Part shown: positions 6,656-39,715 of the stretch, in pieces
Position numbering within the stretch: the first letter of the stretch is position 1
Layout: each line of letters opens with the position of its first letter
NCBI RefSeq assembly: GCF_000614545.1
Contig: NZ_BAKW01000002.1
Location: 1-64,000 of the forward strand
Origin: Asaia platycodi JCM 25414
GTDB lineage: Bacteria > Pseudomonadota > Alphaproteobacteria > Acetobacterales > Acetobacteraceae
DNA length: 64,000 nt
Direction of reading: 5' to 3'
Notes under the pieces: model-generated
The model's database searches: none
What the model saw: only the letters and a program-made list of their open reading frames with translations
What the model was told of the DNA's origin: nothing
Program-made: the position numbers and the translations under genes

Positions 6656-7796
6656 TGTGAACTCTCAATGTATTCACGATGGAAGCGCTTTCCGAGACTG
6701 GTCAGCAGCTCATATCCGATCGTATCCAGCGCTGAGGCCAGATCGTCCAGCGGACGATGGGGGCCGATCAGCTCGAAACCCGTGCCGGGGGGCAAGTCCA
6801 GTTCCCCTAGCGCGGTAATGTCCAGCGCCATGCAATCCATCGAGATCCGCCCCACTACGGGGAGGGATATGTCTGGCCTTGCAGGCAGAACCGCGCTGGT
6901 GAAGCCACCGGCGCGACGATGAAATCCGTCGGCATAGCGACAGAGAGCGTGGCGATGCGCGTCTTCTGCGTTGCCACGAAGCGCGCACTATAACCGACTG
7001 CCGTGTCCGGCGCGATCCATCGATCCTGAACTAGCCCGCCCAGCATCGTGACGACAGCCTGCATCGGGTTGGGCAGAGGGGGAGTGGGGTTGCCGCCGTA
7101 GAGCGCATAGCCGGGGCGGACCAGATCGAAATGGAACGCCTCGCCCAGAAAAATACCGCTCGATGCGGCAAGGCTGGCGGGCAAAGCAGGCAGCTTGCGC
7201 TTCAGCGCTTCAAAACGCAGGCGCTGGCCCTCATTGCGTGGTGAGGTCGCATCGTCGGCGCAAGCGAGATGACTCATGACATAGGCGATGTCGAGCGCGT
7301 CCGGCAGCGCCTCGGCACAAAGCGTGTCGAGATCCTTGCCCGAGAGCCCGAAACGCGACATGCCGCTATCGAGCTGAAGCAGGCAGGGTCGTTTACGACC
7401 TGTCTCCTGACCCAGCGCCGCCCAGCGACGCGCCTGATCGAGGCTGTTCAGAACGGGAGTCAGGCCCGAAGCGGCAAGAACCCTCTCGCTTGCAACGGGA
7501 GGGCCGTTCAGGATGCAGATTGCCGCGTCGTCCGGCAGAAGCGGGCGCAGGCCGAGCCCCTCCTCGACGGTTGCGACAAAAAAGCGGCGGCACCCGGCCT
7601 GGTAGAGGGCAGGGGCGACACGCGCCACGCCGAGCCCGTAGGCATCGGCCTTGACCGCCGCGCCTACCGCTACGCCGCGGCCGACTTTCCGAGTCAGCAG
7701 TGTGTAGTTCTGCTTGAGGGCATCGAGGTCGATGCGTAACCAGCCTCCGGCGCGCTGTTTCGCGCCTGCTTCCACCTCGCTCTGCTGCACTGTCAT
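6652..7796 (-). CDS. alr: Alanine racemase (frame interrupted)
   Basis: A PLP enzyme of about 381 residues that interconverts L- and D-alanine. The PLP-binding lysine sits in [10 protein letters not shown] (residues 48-57). Near 6938 the frame breaks: restoring one G gives SVGYADGF, the motif before the C-terminal beta domain, and reading then continues to [15 protein letters not shown] and the stop at 6652. Missing one G of GG is the simplest explanation. It overlaps dadA by four bases, which suggests the catabolic (DadX) role, although it may also supply D-alanine for the cell wall, since no second racemase is visible in the window. Confidence 0.93.
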
Positions 7797-7853
7797 TCGG
7801 GTCCGGGTCTCTCGATCATTTCGAAATCATTCTAAACTGCCCCCTGCCATCGC

Positions 7854-8887
7854 TCAAGAGCCCGCGGGTACCCCCTTGCTGGTGGAATATTCGAAATGCA
7901 GCGCCTGATCGGGATGCACGATGGGATGGATGGCATGGGCGGCCATGGCCCTTCGCTGAATCCCTGCAGGATCAGCTTGAGTTTGCCGGGATAGGTCGCG
8001 ACGTCGCCGATGGCGAACACGCCGGGCAGGCTGGTTTCCATGGTCGAGGGGGTGACGGGCAGGGTGGTGCGTATGCTGTCGATATTCCAGGTGGCAATCG
8101 GGCCGAGATCGGTCGAAAGACCGTAGAAAGGCAGAAGCGTATCGGCCTCGATACGGCGCACCTGCCCTTCGAGATCGATCACATCGACCGCCGAAAGCGC
8201 GCCGTTTTCTCCCTCAAGCGCGTGAAGCTGATAGGGTACGACCTTCTCGATGCGGCCTTCGGCCACGCGGGTTTCGATCTGGGCCAGTGTCTCCGGCGCA
8301 CCACGAAAGCGGTCGCGGCGGTGCAGCAGATAGATCTTGTCGGCGATATCGGAGAGCGAGAGCGCCCAGTCGAGGGCGGAGTCGCCACCGCCCGCCACCA
8401 CGATGCGCTTGCCAGCAAAATCGGCGCGCTTGCGCACGTAATACTGAACGGCGCCACTTGCCTCGTAAGCATCGAGCCCGTCCAGCGGCGGGCGATTCGG
8501 CCCGAAGGCACCCGCACCGGCGGCTATGATGACTGCGCGTGCCGTCACCACATTGCCCTTGTCGGTTTCGAGCGTGAAATCGCCGCGCGTCCCGGAGAGT
8601 TTTTCGACCCGCTGGCCGAGCAGGCGCAGCACATCGAAGGGGGCGATCTGCGCATCGAGCGCCGCGATCAGCGCGCCACCCTCGATCGAAGGATGGCCCG
8701 GAATGTCATAGATCGGCTTCTCAGGGTAAAGCGCCGCACATTGACCGCCGATCTCTCCCAGCGCGTCGATCAGAACGCAGGAGAGTTTGAGCATCCCGCA
8801 TTCGAAAGCCGCAAAAAGGGCGGTCGGTCCTGCACCGATAATGGCGACATCGATATCGAGAGGAGTCTGGCCCATAAGCGCGTTCAT
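7854..8887 (-). CDS. Ferredoxin--NADP(+) reductase, thioredoxin-reductase type (frame interrupted)
   Basis: A flavoprotein of about 344 residues of the type-2 ferredoxin-NADP reductase family, moving electrons between NADPH and ferredoxin or flavodoxin. The FAD site IIGAGPTALFAAFE is at residues 16-29, GGQCAALYPEKPIYDIPG follows at about 47, the NADP site VAGGGDSALDWAL lies near 165, and FAIGDVATYPGKLKLILQGFSEG is the C-terminal FAD motif. Directly after FSEG the frame breaks near 7950; restoring one G in a GGGG run yields AMAAHAIHPIVHPDQALHFEYSTSKG and a stop at 7854, matching the family end. Without that base the frame runs to 7832 with unrelated residues. Confidence 0.9.
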
Positions 8888-9085
8888 TCCTGTCTGTTGC
8901 GTCCTGTGATCCTCCTAGCAGCTAACAGAAAGCGAGAGCCTCGCCCAGAGCCGGAACTGGAGCCAGACCCCGCCCTGCCGCAGCGTCTGACAGATACAGG
9001 CGCATTGCGTGTCACTCACACCTTTGATACGAAAGTCGCCAGCATCAAGAGTCGACAGATCCTGTCGGCGCCAACCTGCTCCCGG

Positions 9086-9152
9086 GCAAGGTGGTATCTT
9101 CGGTCTTGACCGAAGAGATGTGGCCGCTCCGGCAATCTCGGGACAAGCCACA
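9086..9152 (+). promoter_or_regulatory. Candidate structured leader RNA upstream of the threonine aldolase
   Basis: Two consecutive hairpins: TCTTCGGT (9097-9104) with ACCGAAGA (9109-9116) around a CTTG loop, then TGTGGC (9119-9124) with GCCACA (9147-9152) enclosing a 22-base loop with an inner TCC/GGA pairing. The end lies about 48 bases before the GTG start of the next gene. It fits no riboswitch class I could match by eye (glycine, SAM, TPP, FMN, guanidine and ZTP were considered). Confidence 0.3.
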
Positions 9153-9200
9153 CCCCCTTTTCGTTCGGAGCGTCTGTACGTCCAGAAAGGACTCTCTGCC

Positions 9201-10225
9201 GTGGCCCAGCAATTTGCCAGTGATAATTATGCCGGTATCTGTCCCGAAGTCTGGGATGTGATGCAGCAGGCCAATGCGGGTTCGGTTCCGGCTTATGGCG
9301 ACGATGAATGGACCAACCGCGCTTCTGACAGCTTCCGTACCCTGTTCGGTACGCAATGCGAGGTGTTCTTTGCCTTCAACGGCACAGCCGCCAATTCTCT
9401 GGCGCTCGCCTCGCTCTGCCAGTCCTATAACAGCGTCATCTGTTCGTCTTTTGCCCATGTCGAGACCGATGAATGCGGCGCGCCTGAATTCTTTTCCAAC
9501 GGCTCCAAATTGCTGGTGGCCCGCACCGATCACGCCAAGCTTTTTCCCGAAGATATAAGGGCGCTGGCGACCTGTCGCAGCGATATCCACTATCCCAAGC
9601 CAAAGGTCGTGACGATCACCCAGCCTACCGAGACGGGTGAGGTCTATTCGCTGGCAGAAATACGCGCGATTGCCGAGACCTGCCGCGAACTGGGGCTGCG
9701 CCTGCATATGGATGGCGCCCGCTTCGCCAATGCCTGCGCGGCTCTGGGCTGCACGCCTGCCGAGATGACATGGCAGGCCGGAGTAGACGTGTTGTGTTTC
9801 GGCGGCACAAAGAACGGCATGGCTGTCGGAGAAGCGATTCTGTTCTTCGATCCTGCACTCGCCGAGGGCTTCGATTATCGCTGCAAGCAGGCAGGGCAGC
9901 TGGCCTCGAAAATGCGCTTTATTTCGGCGCCCTGGGTCGGTCTGCTGGAGAGCGGCGCCTGGCTGCGTAACGGCCAGCACGGTAATGACAGCGCCCGGGC
10001 GCTGGCAGAGCGGATCACGGCATTGCCCGGACTTTCCCTGATGTTTCCGGCGCAGGCCAATGCCGTGTTTCTCAAGGCACCTGAAGCCGTGCTCGAAGGG
10101 CTGCGTGAGCGGGGATGGCGTTTTTACACGTTCATCGGCGGTGGCGCGCGTTTCATGTTCGCCTGGGATGCCGCATCCGTACGTGTGGCGCAGCTTGCTG
10201 CCGATATCGAGGCCCTTGCGCGTGA
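9201..10225 (+). CDS. ltaE: Low-specificity L-threonine aldolase
   Basis: A PLP enzyme of about 341 residues that cleaves L-threonine/allo-threonine to glycine and acetaldehyde. The PLP lysine is K204 in CFGGTKNGMAVGEA; GTAANSLAL (61-69) and HMDGARFANA (169-178) are also typical. Start GTG at 9201 follows AAAGGA. In the sequence as given, the frame continues past the expected end to 10514, adding some 97 residues that are out-of-frame reading of the next gene. Family length, and the fact that one restored base gives TGA overlapping the next start as GTGA at 10222-10225, indicate a lost G just before the stop. It is preceded by a structured leader candidate and diverges from the reductase gene. 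Confidence 0.9.
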
Positions 10226-34283: not shown

Positions 34284-35184
34284 GTCCGTTGATGTTTTCT
34301 GCCTGTTCGCTGGCGCATGCCAAGATCAATCTGTTTCTGCACATTACCGCACGCCGCGAGAACGGCTATCACGAACTCGACTCTCTGGCCGTGTTCGCCG
34401 AGACAGCCGATGTGCTGACACTCGAAGCGTCCCGCCCTGTCGAACACGGCATGAGCCTTGCAATCGACGGACCTTTCGGCGCCGGGCTCGAAGCCGGGTC
34501 GGATAACCTTGTGCTGCGCGCCGCTGCGGCCCTGCGCGAAACCGCAAATCTGGCTGACAGCCTGCCTGCGTGGCAGATGCGGCTTACCAAAAACCTGCCC
34601 GTGGCTTCCGGTATCGGTGGCGGCTCGGCTGATGCTGCTGCCGCGCTGCGTCTTCTGGCGGCGGCCTGGCAGTGTGAAGATCTCGACCTTGCGCCGATTG
34701 CTGCATCGCTCGGGGCGGATGTGCCGGTCTGTCTCGCTCAGAAGACTCAGCGCATGCAGGGAATTGGCGAAGTTCTGGTCTCAGCCCCTCGCTTGCCGCG
34801 CTGTGCCATGGTGCTGGTCAATCCTGCGTTGCCGTGCCAACCCCCGCCGTTTTTCGCGCCTGGAAGGAGTCTGGTGTGCTGTTCCGTCAGGCTGCTTCGC
34901 TGCCCGGCCATTGGGATGACGTTAAGGGGATGGCCGCGAGCCTGAGATCAACTTCGAATGATCTGCAGGCTCCGGCGATTGCTCTCTTTCCTGTAATCGG
35001 TGAAGTCTTGAACACTCTGGAGCGTTCCGAATCCTGCCATTTCGCCCGCATGAGCGGGTCCGGAGCGACGTGTTTCGGCCTTTATGACGGTGTGGATGCG
35101 GCGCGTCATGCGGCAACGGCCTTGCGTGCTCATGGATGGTGGGCAGAAGCAGGGTGGGTTCAGATCGCAGGAGACCAGATCTGA
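34280..35184 (+). CDS. ispE: 4-diphosphocytidyl-2-C-methyl-D-erythritol kinase (frame interrupted)
   Basis: A GHMP kinase of about 301 residues, the fourth enzyme of the methylerythritol phosphate isoprenoid route, which also supplies hopanoid precursors. [22 protein letters not shown] (start), the ATP motif [17 protein letters not shown] and the C-terminal [13 protein letters not shown] are diagnostic. One base is missing near 34831, between LVNPALP and [12 protein letters not shown]. As the enzyme is essential in bacteria relying on this pathway, the break is most probably a sequence error. Translationally coupled to the TPR gene. Confidence 0.95.
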
Positions 35185-35256
35185 CCTTCTGAGCCGAGAC
35201 ATGGCCTTTTTCAGCCCGGCTGTTCTCGCGCGCCATCATGCTTTGGGCAATCTGAA

Positions 35257-35661
35257 ATGAGGGATCTTTCGGTCATGGGTGCAAGAATGCAGGTCATCCA
35301 GAAAGAGGATGGCACAGGCGCGACGCTCCGTTTTCTCGAAGGGAGCGGAATCGAGGGGGAGATCGACCTGACGCTCGATCAGCTCAGCCAGCTTATCACG
35401 AGCCTCGGTCGTGTGCGCTATGCTATGACGGCTAACCAGCCTCAGCCGCCGATCGGAAATGTGCCGTTTCTACCGGTATACAGCACGAACTGGGCGTTAC
35501 AGATCGATGCCCTTACTGAGGGGTCGACCCTGGCTTACCAGCACCCGGCATATGGACCGGTCGGACTGGTTTTCGCACCCGAAGATATCGAAAAACTGCT
35601 TAAGGGTCTCAAACAGCATCGAGCGCTGATGGCAGCCAATACCTCCCGCCAGCCGAGTTAG
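35257..35661 (+). CDS. Hypothetical protein
   Basis: A 134-residue protein (or 128 from ATG 35275) of unknown function, intact, without signal peptide or membrane segment. It is soluble and mixed alpha/beta in composition, with the segment LTLDQLSQLITSLGRVRYAM and a proline-rich PQPPIGNVPFLP. No family recognised. It follows ispE on the same strand after 72 bases. Confidence 0.6.
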   Translation: MRDLSVMGARMQVIQKEDGTGATLRFLEGSGIEGEIDLTLDQLSQLITSLGRVRYAMTANQPQPPIGNVPFLPVYSTNWALQIDALTEGSTLAYQHPAYGPVGLVFAPEDIEKLLKGLKQHRALMAANTSRQPS

Positions 35662-35736
35662 ACGGAATCTGCCTTGGAGCAATGCCCGGTCCGGTGGTCT
35701 TTTCCCCGGATAGAAAGCCGCGCACGCAGGATCTTC

Positions 35737-37212
35737 TTATATCGGGAGGTCGAGAGGCTCACCGTAGACATGGACCTTTTCCAGGTGAAGAATGGTCTTC
35801 TTCAGCGTCGTAATCTTGATGAAGCGGCAGGTGACATCAGGGTAGAGATCAATTTCCAGAGGTTTGCCGTCGCTACCGCCGAATTGACGCTGTTGCACAT
35901 GAAGTAGTGACCAGTCGGTGCTGTCGGTTGAGCAATAGACGCGCAAGGGAAGGCATCTTCTGGCAACGATCTCGTTATCGCATCTGTTAAAAATACTGAC
36001 GTGATCGATCTTGTGGAGACTCAATAGATCGATAATCAAGAACGGACTCTGTTCGTCCGCAGTATGAAAAGCCATGAGATCCGTTTTCGACGCATTTATG
36101 GCATTCAAAGCCTGCTCTTCAGCGGAGTTTCCGGCGGCATATTCTGTATGCGAACTGATGATGGCTTTCTTGTCGTGCGACACATTGCGATACCGCCCTT
36201 TCTTGTAGGGAGCCGGTGATCGTCCTTCCCAGAGGCCGATTGTCATATAATGATGATGGGGGTCAAAGCAGAGGCCATTGGCGATCTGATAGCCGCAATC
36301 GGGATTCATATTGAGATACCAGAAATCATCGATCTGGAATATTTTCTGCATGGGCGGCTTTTCTGAAAAACGCCGTTTGATTGCGTCAACTTCATCAGCG
36401 GATATCGCGTCGATATAGGCGTCGATCCCCTGGTTGAAGGCGATCTGCCGCCCCTCCACCAGGGCGTAGGAATAAGGAAGGACGTGATATTTGTATCGTG
36501 CATCCTGTGTTGGCAGGAGATCGATCTCTCCGAGAAATGAGGGAACACTGAAAAATCCCCAGAGCTGGGTATAGATATTTTCTGCCTCGGAGAGCCATGA
36601 GGAAATGAATGAAAATGTGCTGATGCCCATGACAATATTATGAGCAGATCTGATGAGGTCGAAATCCCGTTGTGGAGAGACGTGGTCCAGGAAGCGCGCT
36701 TCAGGGAAGGCCTGTCGGAGCATCCTGCAATATAGACTGTCATCCACCTGACCCATAAAGACAGGATTCAGATTGGTTTCTTCTATGATCTTCTTGTAAT
36801 AAGATATAGGTAATAAAGGGTATTGAGAGAATCCAAATATCAATTCTCCACATCTTATATTGATGACGAGGTCGTCTTTATCAACAGCGACAGGATGAAT
36901 GATCGGAAAGAGTCTGCGGTAATGATCCGCATTCTTCATTAGAAAATGTTTTTGCAGATAACCGTCGAAGACGACCAGATCAGGCTTGTATTGCTCTATT
37001 ATTGCAATCACCTCTTCTTCAGAGGAAAAGAAATCGTTTATGTGGAGTGTACGATAGGGCGACTCATCTATGTCGGGGGTGGTGAGGCCATATTCATCAA
37101 GTTTGACATTGAATATCGTGGACTCTGGCCAATGTTTAGAGATTTCATTTGCGGATATATACTGTATTATTCTATTGCCTATATTTCCATGACTCCTGAT
37201 CTTGAAGATCAT
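35737..37212 (-). CDS. Glycosyltransferase-like protein with C-terminal discoidin (F5/8 type C) domain
   Basis: About 491 residues. The N-terminus MIFKIRSHGNIGNRIIQYISA recalls GT11-type alpha-1,2-fucosyltransferases (GxxGNxxFQY), and residues 115-215 contain LVINIRCGELIFG. A central segment, YLNMNPDCGYQIANGLCFDP...HYMTIGLWEGRSP, matches the YLxxNPDVxxAGxDPxxHYLxxGxxEGRxP unit found in some polysaccharide glycosyltransferases. The last 140 residues look like a discoidin/F5-8C carbohydrate-binding domain (FLIIDLLSLHKIDHVSIFNR, LRVYCSTDSTDWSLL, CRFIKITTLKKTILHLEKVHVYG). Start 37212 has GGAGA 7 bases upstream. The gene is markedly AT-richer than its neighbours, which suggests transfer. Family assignments are by eye. 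Confidence 0.7.
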   Translation of the reverse strand: MIFKIRSHGNIGNRIIQYISANEISKHWPESTIFNVKLDEYGLTTPDIDESPYRTLHINDFFSSEEEVIAIIEQYKPDLVVFDGYLQKHFLMKNADHYRRLFPIIHPVAVDKDDLVINIRCGELIFGFSQYPLLPISYYKKIIEETNLNPVFMGQVDDSLYCRMLRQAFPEARFLDHVSPQRDFDLIRSAHNIVMGISTFSFISSWLSEAENIYTQLWGFFSVPSFLGEIDLLPTQDARYKYHVLPYSYALVEGRQIAFNQGIDAYIDAISADEVDAIKRRFSEKPPMQKIFQIDDFWYLNMNPDCGYQIANGLCFDPHHHYMTIGLWEGRSPAPYKKGRYRNVSHDKKAIISSHTEYAAGNSAEEQALNAINASKTDLMAFHTADEQSPFLIIDLLSLHKIDHVSIFNRCDNEIVARRCLPLRVYCSTDSTDWSLLHVQQRQFGGSDGKPLEIDLYPDVTCRFIKITTLKKTILHLEKVHVYGEPLDLPI

Positions 37213-37697
37213 AACAATATCTCCGAATAACATATTTTTGAAAGATTTCAGGATGAATAGATCGTATTTTTACTTGTAATTTGTCAAGTTTGACACTGCC
37301 CTAAATGACTGTTTGCGCGGCACGTAGGAAAATTATCAGGTCCCTTCGAGGTCGAAATCACGACGATCTGCGCTGGTTCCGAGAGGAATTCGTCTATTAT
37401 TCCGAAATATTCACTATATCGCGACGCAATTCCCTTCTGTTGTCACGATACAGCGTGACGAATAGAGAGTCTGTATTGTCTTGCTGTGGCTGGCCGTCCT
37501 GTGTCCTTGTGTCAAGGATAATGACGTCCTCGGTTCTTGTGCCGCGAGACGACTCTGTCTGGCGATGAGGGCTTTTCATGCCTTCCAGAAGGTGCGGCAG
37601 AATGGAGCAGACGATCATCCTGCTTTGCCTTCGTGAGTCTGTCCTCATGGGCCGAGGGCAGCAGAACGAGAACCTGTTGGTGCCTGTGATGATCGTG
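37213..37697. other. AT-richer non-coding stretch upstream of the glycosyltransferase
   Basis: No credible gene; small frames on both strands lack family features. A hairpin GTCACG/CGTGAC (37442-37447 with 37454-37459) is present. The stretch shares the lower GC of the adjacent glycosyltransferase gene and probably carries its promoter. No transposase remnant was recognised. Confidence 0.4.
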
Positions 37698-37720
37698 TCG
37701 AGGTGATCGCGTCACCTCGA
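37698..37720. repeat. Perfect 9-bp inverted repeat
   Basis: TCGAGGTGA (37698-37706) and TCACCTCGA (37712-37720) with a TCGCG spacer, 20 bases beyond the stop of the short-chain dehydrogenase. There is no T tract, so it may be a weak terminator or a protein-binding site. Confidence 0.45.
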
Positions 37721-37740
37721 TATGGGGGGGCAGAGCCTGT

Positions 37741-38741
37741 TCAGACTCTTCGGCGTATTGCTGCCCAGCCAAGCATTAATGCAGCTACGGATAGAACCGT
37801 TGCGCTGAAGCCGATCCGCCTTGGAATTGTCAGCAGCAGCGGCTTGCGCCCCTGATCGCGCAGGGGAATTCCTTCATAGGGTCCATGGGCGGCATAAGCG
37901 CCGGGCTGGCTTTCAACAAGCGTGTCGGTTTCTGTGTCGGCCTTGCCCGACGCGTATTGGGCAGTGATACCTTTTCTGGCGAGATAGCGATCGCGCAGCG
38001 AGGGGGCGACGCCATTGATCAGGCTCGGCAGGATCGACGACGCACCGACCCAGATATCGCGATGATGGCCCAGTACGGCCTGGCAGATCGCATGGGCGGC
38101 TACTTCGGCTCATAGATACGACCGCTGGGCTTGAGCGCATGGCCCGAGCGATTGCGGCTCCAGCCCAGACGCGGGGTGTTGATGGAAGGAAGATGCACGA
38201 CAGTCAGATCGATGCGGTCGGATAGCGCCCTGATTTCCGGGCGCACGCTGTCGCAGAACGCGCTGATTGCGGCATGGGCGCCGTTTATGGCGGCCTGAAG
38301 CGGCAGACCGCGCAGCGGATGGGCAAGTCCGAGATTGACGATCGTGCCGCTACCGCGTCGGCGCATGCAGGCCAGCGCCGCCTGGGTGCCGAAAACAGAG
38401 CCGAGATAGGTCACGTCAGTCACGCGTCTGAGCGTCTCGGCATCGAGCGACAATACCGGCCCGATAGCCGTCACACCTGCTGCGTTGATCCATACCGTGA
38501 TCGCGCCGAGCTCGCGTTCAACGCGCTCAGCAGCGTCGGAAACGGCTTGTGCATCCGAGATATCGACCGGCAGGACGAGCGTGCGTATGGCGTTTGCTTC
38601 GAGTTCAACCGCAGCATCCTGCAGGCGCTGCTCGTTACGGCCCATGAGGGCAATGTCGAAACCATAGGATGCCAGCATACGCACCGTGGCACGCCCGATA
38701 CCGGCTCCGGCGCCTGTGACGACGGCAATCTGGTTGGGCAT
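37741..38741 (-). CDS. Short-chain dehydrogenase/reductase with C-terminal membrane anchor (frame interrupted)
   Basis: About 333 residues. The NAD(P) motif TGAGAGIGRATV lies at residues 9-20, and INAAGVTAIGP is the NNAG-like motif. The SDR catalytic Tyr-x3-Lys is replaced by a region NGAHAAISAFCDSV, so catalysis is uncertain. The given frame stops at 38100; restoring one G near 38107 gives YEPEVAAHAICQAVLGHHRDIWVG and a tail ending in a hydrophobic segment (TVLSVAALMLGWAAIRRRV) at 37741. Start at 38741 has AGGA upstream; 38756 is an alternative. Substrate unknown. Confidence 0.8.
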
Positions 38742-38761
38742 GGCGGCAATCCTCATACAAT

Positions 38762-39372
38762 CTACAGTAGGGTGACAGCCAGAATGCCAGCGATAATGAG
38801 AAAGAGAAAGCCCGCCATGACCAGCGTCAGGCGACGCTCGATGAAGTCCTTGATCGGCGCGCCGTAGAACCAGAGCAATGTTGCCACCAGAAAGAACCGC
38901 GCACCACGTGTGACGAGGCTGGCCGCCAGAAACGGCAGAATGGCGAAATGCGCTGCGCCAGCGGCAATGGTGACGATCTTGAACGGAATGGGGGTCAGGC
39001 CCTTGAGCAGGATGATCGCCACGCCGTAGTGACGGAATTTGTCCTGCAGCATCGCAAGGCTGTGTTCGGCATGATAGAAATGCACGATCGGTAGTGCGAC
39101 ATGCTGTAGCAGAACCGCGCCGATCACCCAGCCCAGCATGGCCCCCGAGACGGAACCGATCGTGCAGATTGCTGCAAGCCTGAACGCTCGCTCACGCGCC
39201 GCCAGCACCATCGGATCAGCATCAGATCGACCGGAATGGGAAAGAACGAGGCCTCGGCAAAGGCGACAGCAAACAGCCACCAGCTGGCATGAGGCGAGGC
39301 CGCCAAAGCGAGTGTGCGACGATAAAGCGGCTGGAACACGAGCAGGCCTCCGGCAATCAGGAAGTCCGTCAA
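38762..39372 (-). CDS. YqaA/DedA-like (SNARE-associated) membrane protein (frame interrupted)
   Basis: About 203 residues, polytopic, of the VTT/DedA superfamily (YqaA-type). ASFFPIPVDLMLIPMVLAARERAFRLAA is restored when one C is added near 39216; IGSVSGAMLGWVIG, KGLTPIPFKIVTIAAG and ASLVTRGARFFLVA follow, the last matching the family's conserved RxxRF motif. These proteins affect membrane energetics and lipid flipping. It is adjacent to the upstream ynfA-type gene on the same strand. Confidence 0.85.
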
Positions 39373-39388
39373 TGACCCAGGCCGCTCC

Positions 39389-39715
39389 TTATGTCGAGCG
39401 CGGCGCCCAGAGAATCAGTGCCGCACCGCACAGGCAGATTGCAGCACCTGCCAGCTCCCACCGGTCGGGGCTGCGTCCTTCGAACACGCGCATCCAGATC
39501 AGCGAGGCGGTAATGTAGACACCGCCATAGGCCGCATAGGCCCGGCCCGCACTGTCGCTGTCGACCCGTGTCAGGATGAGCGCGAAAAGCGTCAGACTGA
39601 ACAGACCGGGGATGATCCACCAGACGGAACGCTCCATGCGTAACCACGCCCAGAAGGCGAAGCAGCCGGCGATTTCAGCAAAGCCAGCCGCGATATAGAA
39701 AAAAAGGGTTAGCAT
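39389..39715 (-). CDS. YnfA/UPF0060-family inner-membrane protein
   Basis: A 108-residue protein with four hydrophobic helices, exactly the family length. Signatures are [22 protein letters not shown] at the start, [21 protein letters not shown] in the middle, and [18 protein letters not shown] at the end. YnfA proteins belong to the small-multidrug-resistance-like superfamily; physiological substrates are unclear. The ATG at 39715 fits the family start; longer in-frame extensions upstream are not supported. Confidence 0.9.

Follow-up and report, generated by a model that had tools for sequence, protein, structure and literature searches.

The glycosyltransferase family GT11 of CAZy (Pfam PF01531) consists mostly of alpha-1,2-fucosyltransferases, and the F-type lectins are the family that also goes by the name CBM47. 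Here we describe a gene whose product appears to join relatives of both in a single polypeptide. It lies in a stretch of 64,000 nucleotides of the Asaia platycodi JCM 25414 genome (contig NZ_BAKW01000002.1, positions 1 to 64,000), called the window below, in which a low-GC islet encodes a predicted GT-B transferase domain, a helical unit and an F-type-lectin-like domain, in this order.

The lectin-bearing transferases that we found described, as far as the excerpted sources go, are animal enzymes in which the lectin affects which chains are formed. Mouse GnT-IVa (MGAT4A) carries at its C-terminus a CBM32-like lectin domain, which binds the product and on which full activity depends; this domain prefers the GlcNAc-branched product over the acceptor, and exchanging one residue of its sugar site lowers the activity to about 62% (excerpt of PMC9296478). 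In the polypeptide GalNAc-transferases, which combine a GT27 domain with a ricin-type CBM13 domain, the lectin guides the enzyme on already glycosylated substrate, according to the same excerpt. Bishnoi et al. reported that F-type domains of bacteria occur in fusion with glycoenzymes, with methyltransferases and with further enzymes, as summarized in an excerpt of PMC5712786. A literature search for lectin- or discoidin-bearing transferases, covering titles and the starts of abstracts, had no GT11/F-type-lectin fusion among the matches listed, and an earlier mention is possible.

Results

The original prediction, made from the letters of the DNA, had described a low-GC islet comprising a gene and about 500 bases upstream of it, and a 491-residue product that combines a GT11-like N-terminus, a YLxxNPD...EGRxP unit and a C-terminal F5/8-type-C domain. 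The fusion open reading frame (ORF), the low-GC islet and the three described parts are confirmed (Table 1), with the GT11-like stretch staying below the Pfam threshold. The frame is open and unbroken for 498 codons from the first ATG (35737-37233, minus strand). The alternative start at 37212 is preceded by GGAG, coincides with the start point of the homologues and yields 491 residues; residue numbers refer to this form.

The N-terminal domain is predicted to belong to the fucosyltransferase superfamily by fold and to be related to GT11 by profile, while it is not a GT11 protein by the Pfam rule. In an hhalign comparison, the profile of A4, an alignment of 69 related domains (that of the window and 68 of 77 transferase stretches), matched the profile of 12 Pfam-positive GT11 proteins (A5; 12 of 16 GT11 loci) with a probability of 99.0 and an E value of 4.5e-18. 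A further alignment, A1, comprised the window and 28 of 29 stretches. The hhalign match spans columns 2-240 and 3-293, respectively, and pairs GNIGN with GGLGN, NIRCGE with HVRRGD and STFSF with NSSFSW. The motifs of the domain are GNxGN..QY (residues 9-18), N-I-R120-x-G-E, D183-F184 and S198-T-F-S, and R120, D183, F184 and S198 are invariant in all 69 rows of A4.

Because a fold search with the whole model covered only the lectin part, a separate model and fold search were made for the transferase domain. Its model has a mean predicted local distance difference test score (pLDDT) of 92.2, and a GT-B transferase is predicted, in line with the glycosyltransferase fold that had been expected at the N-terminus. 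The best matches in the VIA fold search were AtFUT1 (Z 10.6, 217 residues, 3.7 Å) and POFUT2 (10.5, 226 residues, 4.6 Å), followed by NodZ (10.4, 203 residues, 3.5 Å), POFUT1 (10.2, 212 residues, 4.5 Å) and FUT8 (10.1, 227 residues, 5.0 Å). Fucosyltransferases account for 38 of the 50 rows, including the first 26, with Z scores from 8.9 to 10.6; heptosyltransferases appear lower in the list (Z 7.7-8.6). For the predicted model, the ranking in favour of fucosyltransferases is clear, with a margin of about 1 Z unit.

Several observations speak against a simple GT11 assignment. The Pfam model Glyco_transf_11 scores 17.5 bits on the protein and 18.5 bits on the domain alone, below the cut-off of 23.9, and among 10 scanned relatives eight match at E values up to 0.1 and a single one reaches the cut-off. 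Motif I of GT11 reads H-x-R-R-x-D/E, a pattern found in 12 of the 16 Pfam-positive GT11 loci. The window protein has N-I-R-C-G-E, with Asn (N118) instead of His; the motif I columns of A4 contain Arg120 in all 69 rows, an acidic residue (E/D) in 67 and His in only 5. The W that follows STFS in GT11 is replaced by F. A plant NDH subunit (9.7) and a GT9 protein (9.2) follow the best fucosyltransferases of the VIA list at a distance of about 1-1.5 Z units, and Foldseek alone places the heptosyltransferase 1psw first (2.5e-4) and AtFUT1 second (6.8e-4). NCBIfam assigned the window protein to no family, and a PDB sequence search with the transferase part returned nothing credible.

For the C-terminal domain, the Pfam F5/8-type-C model scores 36 bits against a cut-off of 28.2. 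In the full-length model (mean pLDDT 89.3), the best VIA matches of this part are F-type lectins, namely FBP32 (3cqo, Z 20.0, 140 residues, 1.9 Å), lectinolysin (Z about 18), Streptococcus pneumoniae fucose modules (about 18) and eel agglutinin (17.5, 145 residues, 3.4 Å). The profile of 28 lectin-type domains, the window's included, points in the same direction (A3; 28 of 43 distinct domains, with near-copies, fragments and short ones dropped). Its six best PDB matches are all F-type lectins, with E values from 3.4e-38 (FBP32) to 1.8e-14, followed by neuropilin at 8.5e-13 and coagulation factors at 8.5e-13 or weaker. Since F-type lectins rank first both in the fold search and with the family profile, the generic "discoidin" label given to this domain in the original prediction was rejected and replaced, whereas its assignment to a carbohydrate-binding type holds.

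The fucose-binding triad of F-type lectins is described in the excerpt of PMC5712786. In A3, the first triad column contains His in 28 of 28 rows and the next one Arg in 27 of 28; the last has Arg in 27 rows and Lys in one. H383, R410 and R419 of the window protein sit in these columns, and His-Arg-(Arg/Lys) is found in all 13 fusion rows of A3, the window's included. By predicted fold, by the nearest family of solved structures and by the basic triad, the domain is F-type-lectin-like. It does not follow the strict motif HX24RXDX4(R/K) given in the same excerpt and has H-X26-R-X-D-X5/6-R instead; the eel lectin row also has 26 residues between His and Arg, by hand count.

There are also findings that weigh against an intact sugar site. 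The window sequence alone finds an F-type lectin in the PDB only at an E value of 1.1. The WW core is absent, with FLIID in place of WWxVD, and so is the calcium motif hhDGx, which is replaced by NAINAS. The second W of the core is present in 27 of the 28 A3 rows and is missing among the 13 fusion rows only from the window copy. The same copy is the only one of them without [DN]G at the place of the calcium motif, where six of the 12 others have DG and six have NG. Sugar binding may therefore be weak, altered or lost in the window copy. In a tree of the 28 lectin domains, the window domain is unplaced and has a long branch (2.6), and the fusions need four label changes.

The stretch between the two domains is predicted to be helical, with helices at residues 296-302, 304-311 and 318-326 of the model. 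No Pfam model matched the YLxxNPD...EGRxP unit in the window protein, and the stretch was matched weakly in other ORFs of relatives. A YLxxNPD...HY...G..EGRxP unit, or one like it, recurs in the GT11-like proteins, and a relative has it in a further long ORF (L166, 2-2437).

Table 1. Features of the islet and of its edges, in window positions
Feature	Position	Strand	Remarks
Islet	35662..37740		between two convergent genes; GC 0.474; DNA comparison across nine genus genomes
GT11-like/F-type-lectin fusion gene	35737..37212	minus	491 aa (498 aa if ATG at 37233)
Predicted GT-B domain, fucosyltransferase superfamily, GT11-related	36493..37212	minus	residues 1-240; profile, fold, motifs
Helical unit YLNMNPD...HHHY...GLWEGRSP	36214..36318	minus	residues 299-333; between the two domains; helices in model
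Predicted F-type-lectin-like domain	35755..36195	minus	residues 340-486; triad H383, R410, R419
Upstream part of the islet	37234..37740		GC 0.499; no gene recognised
Conserved gene without Pfam name, left insertion edge	35257..35661	plus	gene calls, Pfam, DNA comparison
SDR gene and VTT-domain gene, right insertion edge	37741..39280	minus	SDR stop at 37741-37743

The GC content of the islet, 0.474 overall, with 0.461 in the coding sequence of the fusion and 0.499 in the 507 bases upstream, compares with 0.604 for the whole window. A DNA search of nine genomes of the genus, the own one included, with window positions 34500-39600 found both flanks of the islet in all eight relatives and the islet in none of them, so that the gene is not universal in the genus. 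In the closest relative (G004), flank homology ends at window position 35661 and resumes at 37760, with a gap of 15 bases; in the other seven genomes, 98-204 bases lie between the two flank matches, and diverged gene ends may be part of this interval. Because only 15-204 bases separate the flank matches in the eight relatives, the islet is a clean insertion of about 2.1 kb. From the position of the SDR stop codon, the inserted stretch extends over about 35662-37740, which is nearly the interval 35737-37740 proposed beforehand. No fused match was found elsewhere in the eight relatives, and no second copy of the fusion gene in the own genome. An unfused GT11-like gene is present in one relative (G008), and lectin-type matches occur in all eight, in none of which the GT11-like fusion was found.

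The islet is probably a horizontally acquired piece of DNA with a single gene. The window contains no tRNA gene, the scanned neighbour genes of the islet include no integrase by Pfam, and the flanking repeats are not convincing, being only short chance-type pairs. Counts of promoter-like and terminator-like elements between 35600 and 37800 are near those of shuffled sequences (3 versus 3.2 and 3 versus 1.7, respectively). The islet lies within a 260-kb contig, with relatives matching on either side. Broken frames occur nearby in ispE (34828-34855), in the SDR gene (around 38103) and in an NlpA-type lipoprotein gene (around 40990); all three are open in the best relative (L048), and the breaks are probably errors of the draft sequence.

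The idea of a strain-unique fusion was rejected, since colinear homologues were found by a genome search and by an alignment-based scan; a scan with the single protein had given none. The genome search covered 397 genomes in the bacterial family, among them the own one, and at least five others have a colinear full-length homologue with 33-35% identity. The alignment-based scan of named genomes yielded 71 loci, 12 of which have both domains in one frame; in one of these (L079) the lectin-like domain comes first, and another three are on the same contigs as fusions from the family search. Altogether, 14 colinear fusions were found, including the window's, in addition to one frame-broken plasmid copy. 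They range over Acetobacteraceae/Acidocellaceae, Mesorhizobium and metagenome-assembled genomes (MAGs). Carriers of the 12 one-frame loci include Mesorhizobium sophorae, M. intechi, Mesorhizobium sp. WSM4311, Acidocella sp. KAb 2-4, Acidiphilium iwatense, Acetobacter estunensis and several MAGs, and the broken-frame copy lies on a mobilizable plasmid of G. oxydans, which has two further transferase genes nearby.

In a midpoint-rooted tree of the 69 transferase domains, the 14 fusions and L026, a locus without detectable lectin domain, are on one side of a branch with 100/100 support, and the branch of the window domain is long (1.2). The tree is compatible with a single fusion and a single loss, and with a later spread that would include the Phyllobacteriaceae. 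AT-richness as a general trait of the family holds only partly. At 10 of the 14 fusion loci, the gene has a lower GC content than its flanks (Wilcoxon p 0.03). Of the domain-holding loci, made distinct by a hand-made list, 51 of 79 show the same (median difference -0.015). It is not GC-poorer than its flanks at L068, L071, L074 and L075, the last of which ends at a contig end, and at L067 the difference is 0.001.

Gene neighbourhoods were inspected for the window, for the genomes G217, G177, G132 and G092 (the last by eye) and for the G. oxydans plasmid, with G134 left out. Transferase genes adjoin the fusion homologue in G217, G177 and G132, and this, together with the context of the plasmid copy, supports a role in glycan assembly. 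The homologue in G132 is also next to a transposase gene. As a point to the contrary, no other glycan gene was recognised beside the fusion gene of the window, nor by eye in G092.

Related domains occur in other combinations. The lectin-type domain is also joined to GT2_4/GT92-like domains and, at L005, to a protein with GT2_4/GT92-like and GT61 parts. At L027/L079, a single polypeptide (an open frame of 994 aa) contains GT2_4/GT92-like, F-type-lectin-like and GT11-like parts. Other chimeras combine GT61 with a GT11-like domain (L030), a GT11-like domain with a methyltransferase (L032), and GT11-like, lectin-like and GT2 domains (L070). At L006 and L017 (G021:C1:795000-798500), three neighbouring genes each encode a domain that is hydrolase-like by eye, followed by the same lectin-like domain; similar proteins are found at L020 and L139 (the latter on a G. 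sphaericus plasmid), and the hydrolase part looks alpha/beta by eye. The own genome has two further lectin-like domains, after sequence that looks GT2_4/GT92-like by eye (L065, 2869-4109, and L066, 1015-2525), both in broken frames.

The case for GDP-L-fucose as the obvious donor is weakened by the genome content. No GDP-L-fucose synthase exceeds the cut-off in the own genome (best 39 bits versus 500, with 15 candidates scored), in the eight other genomes of the genus or in the five other fusion genomes. The assembly of the own genome is 86% complete, and the absence of the synthase is therefore weak evidence. The own genome is the only one of the nine with a strong Gmd (437.7 bits, cut-off 415). 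The adjacent gene product matches the GDP-6-deoxy-D-mannose reductase 6x3b (3.7e-48) and scores only 39.2 bits with the GDP-L-fucose synthase model (cut-off 500). The pair is located at L145 (G000:C26:54000-73000), positions 7444-9360, near a GDP-mannose pyrophosphorylase gene (656.6 bits) and a short ORF that resembles export ABC ATPases.

Across the bacterial family, 31 of the 49 domain holders listed have a strong Gmd, compared with 156 of the 348 other genomes (Fisher p 0.021, uncorrected for kinship). The domain holders number at least 49, read by hand from the rows listed, with up to three candidates scored per genome; the Gmd and Fcl searches scored up to five candidates per genome at E values up to 1e-80 and 1e-60. 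GDP-L-fucose synthase is present in only 3 of the 49 listed holders, compared to 37 of the 348 others, and 18 of the 49 are without a strong Gmd, so that a Gmd-derived donor cannot serve all domain holders. Among the six genomes with a full fusion in the family search, three have a strong Gmd and none has the synthase. GDP-D-rhamnose is a possible donor in the own genome, to judge from its genes, and other donors must serve some of the relatives.

Discussion

The computations established the domain order, the predicted folds, the fucosyltransferase kinship, the invariant Arg120, the basic triad, the clean insertion and the single tree group. In the reading that we favour, with a probability of roughly 0.5, the inserted islet encodes a cytosolic GT11-related GT-B transferase with an F-type-lectin-like domain that modifies a surface glycan. 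The cytosolic location is deduced from the lack of a hydrophobic stretch at the level of a membrane helix (the highest 19-residue Kyte-Doolittle value is 1.18). The protein would be an active inverting GT-B transferase with a GDP-hexose as sugar donor. The favoured candidate is a GDP-6-deoxyhexose, which in this organism may be GDP-D-rhamnose made by Gmd and the reductase. The acceptor would be the precursor of a surface glycan (O-antigen, capsule or exopolysaccharide) that is decorated in the cytosol. The lectin-like domain would bind the non-reducing-end residue of the acceptor, or of an already modified glycan, and could thereby raise the local concentration or steer repeated additions, as in GnT-IVa and the GalNAc-transferases. 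It is plausible that the domain holds the acceptor. The role of the gene would be to modify the glycan of the cell surface in a strain-specific way.

It is conceivable, if somewhat unlikely in our view, that the transferase is as described and that the lectin-like domain does not bind sugar in this protein and serves structure or dimerisation alone, or is a remnant in decay. The window copy would fit this explanation well, as it alone among the 13 fusion rows lacks the second W and the [DN]G, and its lectin domain has a long, unplaced branch. L026 belongs to the same group without a detectable lectin domain, and the structural matches include IFT25 (2yc4, Z 15.2), in which the corresponding pocket is occupied by a partner protein (excerpt of PMC9296478). 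However, the retention of the triad in all 13 fusion rows would be unexpected for a purely structural module, and of the 15 members of the group, 14 carry the lectin domain. There is a considerable chance, although we lean the other way, that the donor is not a GDP-6-deoxyhexose, but for example GDP-mannose or a UDP-sugar, and that the likeness to fucosyltransferases reflects only structural ancestry. The scarcity of the synthase among the holders, the patchy occurrence of Gmd (a strong one being found in only half of the full-fusion genomes), the missing His of motif I, the heptosyltransferases in the fold list and the presence of a GDP-mannose pyrophosphorylase in the own genome are all in agreement with another donor. 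The uninterrupted run of fucosyltransferases at the top of the VIA list argues for a 6-deoxyhexose, as do the modest enrichment of Gmd in the holders and the restriction of strong Gmd to this one genome of the genus.

The remaining explanations concern the origin of the gene. The broken frames of ispE, the SDR gene and nlpA mark the assembly sequence as error-prone, and with a genome that is 86% complete one might suspect an assembly artefact or a recent, non-functional acquisition. This is very improbable, as the 498-codon frame is unbroken and colinear over almost its full length with homologues of 33-35% identity, and as it lies once in the genome, on a 260-kb contig whose sequence matches relatives on both sides. 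Alternatively, a phage or plasmid may have brought the gene for seroconversion, in order to remodel the O-antigen and block infection. A single-gene, AT-rich and strain-specific glycan enzyme would suit such a role, and the fused relative on the mobilizable G. oxydans plasmid, near transferase genes, and the G132 relative by a transposase gene are hints in this direction. Still, this origin appears unlikely, as no match was found in 50,697 phage records (E values up to 1e-5) and the islet has no tRNA, no convincing flanking repeat and no integrase among the scanned neighbours.

If the favoured reading of a surface-glycan-modifying transferase is correct, a small bacterial family that has both parts and appears to be soluble would make the role of the lectin testable by simple removal of the domain. 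It would also suggest a route by which, in acetic acid bacteria and in rhizobia, single-gene islets change the surface glycans. The pairing of a fucosyltransferase fold with a fucolectin fold could be of use in glycan engineering. A more far-reaching interpretation, which we offer only tentatively and regard as rather doubtful, is that of a transmissible family in which the fucosyltransferase-superfamily domain is combined with a fucolectin-type reader of the same 6-deoxyhexose that the enzyme adds or extends, and whose genes are passed among alphaproteobacteria in the form of small islets that are often AT-rich. If true, the protein would be a self-guiding "write-and-read" glycan modifier.

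Compared with GT11/PF01531, the protein shares GN..GN..QY, the Arg and the acidic residue of motif I and the STFS...WL motif, and the family profiles match at 4.5e-18. In contrast to GT11 proteins, it scores below the Pfam cut-off, has Asn for the His of motif I, carries an additional helical unit and lectin-like domain, and comes from a genome in which GDP-L-fucose synthase was not detected. The F-type lectins (AAA, FBP32, lectinolysin, the S. pneumoniae module) resemble its C-terminal domain in fold (Z 17.5-20.0), in profile matches and in the His-Arg-Arg triad. Unlike them, the window domain has two additional residues ahead of its second basic position, has neither the WW core nor the DG calcium motif, and is fused to a transferase and probably cytosolic. 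A further comparison is with the lectin-bearing GT2_4/GT92-like and GT61 proteins of Acetobacteraceae, which have the same lectin family (A3), occur in the same organisms and form chimeras such as L027, but differ in catalytic family.

The GalNAc-transferases are eukaryotic, and both of their domain folds are unrelated to those of the window protein. GnT-IVa, an enzyme of the Golgi, is similar in that a C-terminal lectin domain supports the catalysis of a transferase. It differs, as far as the excerpted source goes, in being a eukaryotic enzyme that transfers GlcNAc with a catalytic domain supposed to be GT-A, and in having a lectin that prefers the product. In view of GnT-IVa, the original statement that there is no characterised example of this layout was too strong in general, and it is upheld for GT11-type or bacterial cases among the literature matches listed. 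The combination of a transferase with a lectin is thus a known theme, and what is new is the F-type-lectin partner, together with a defined set of relatives.

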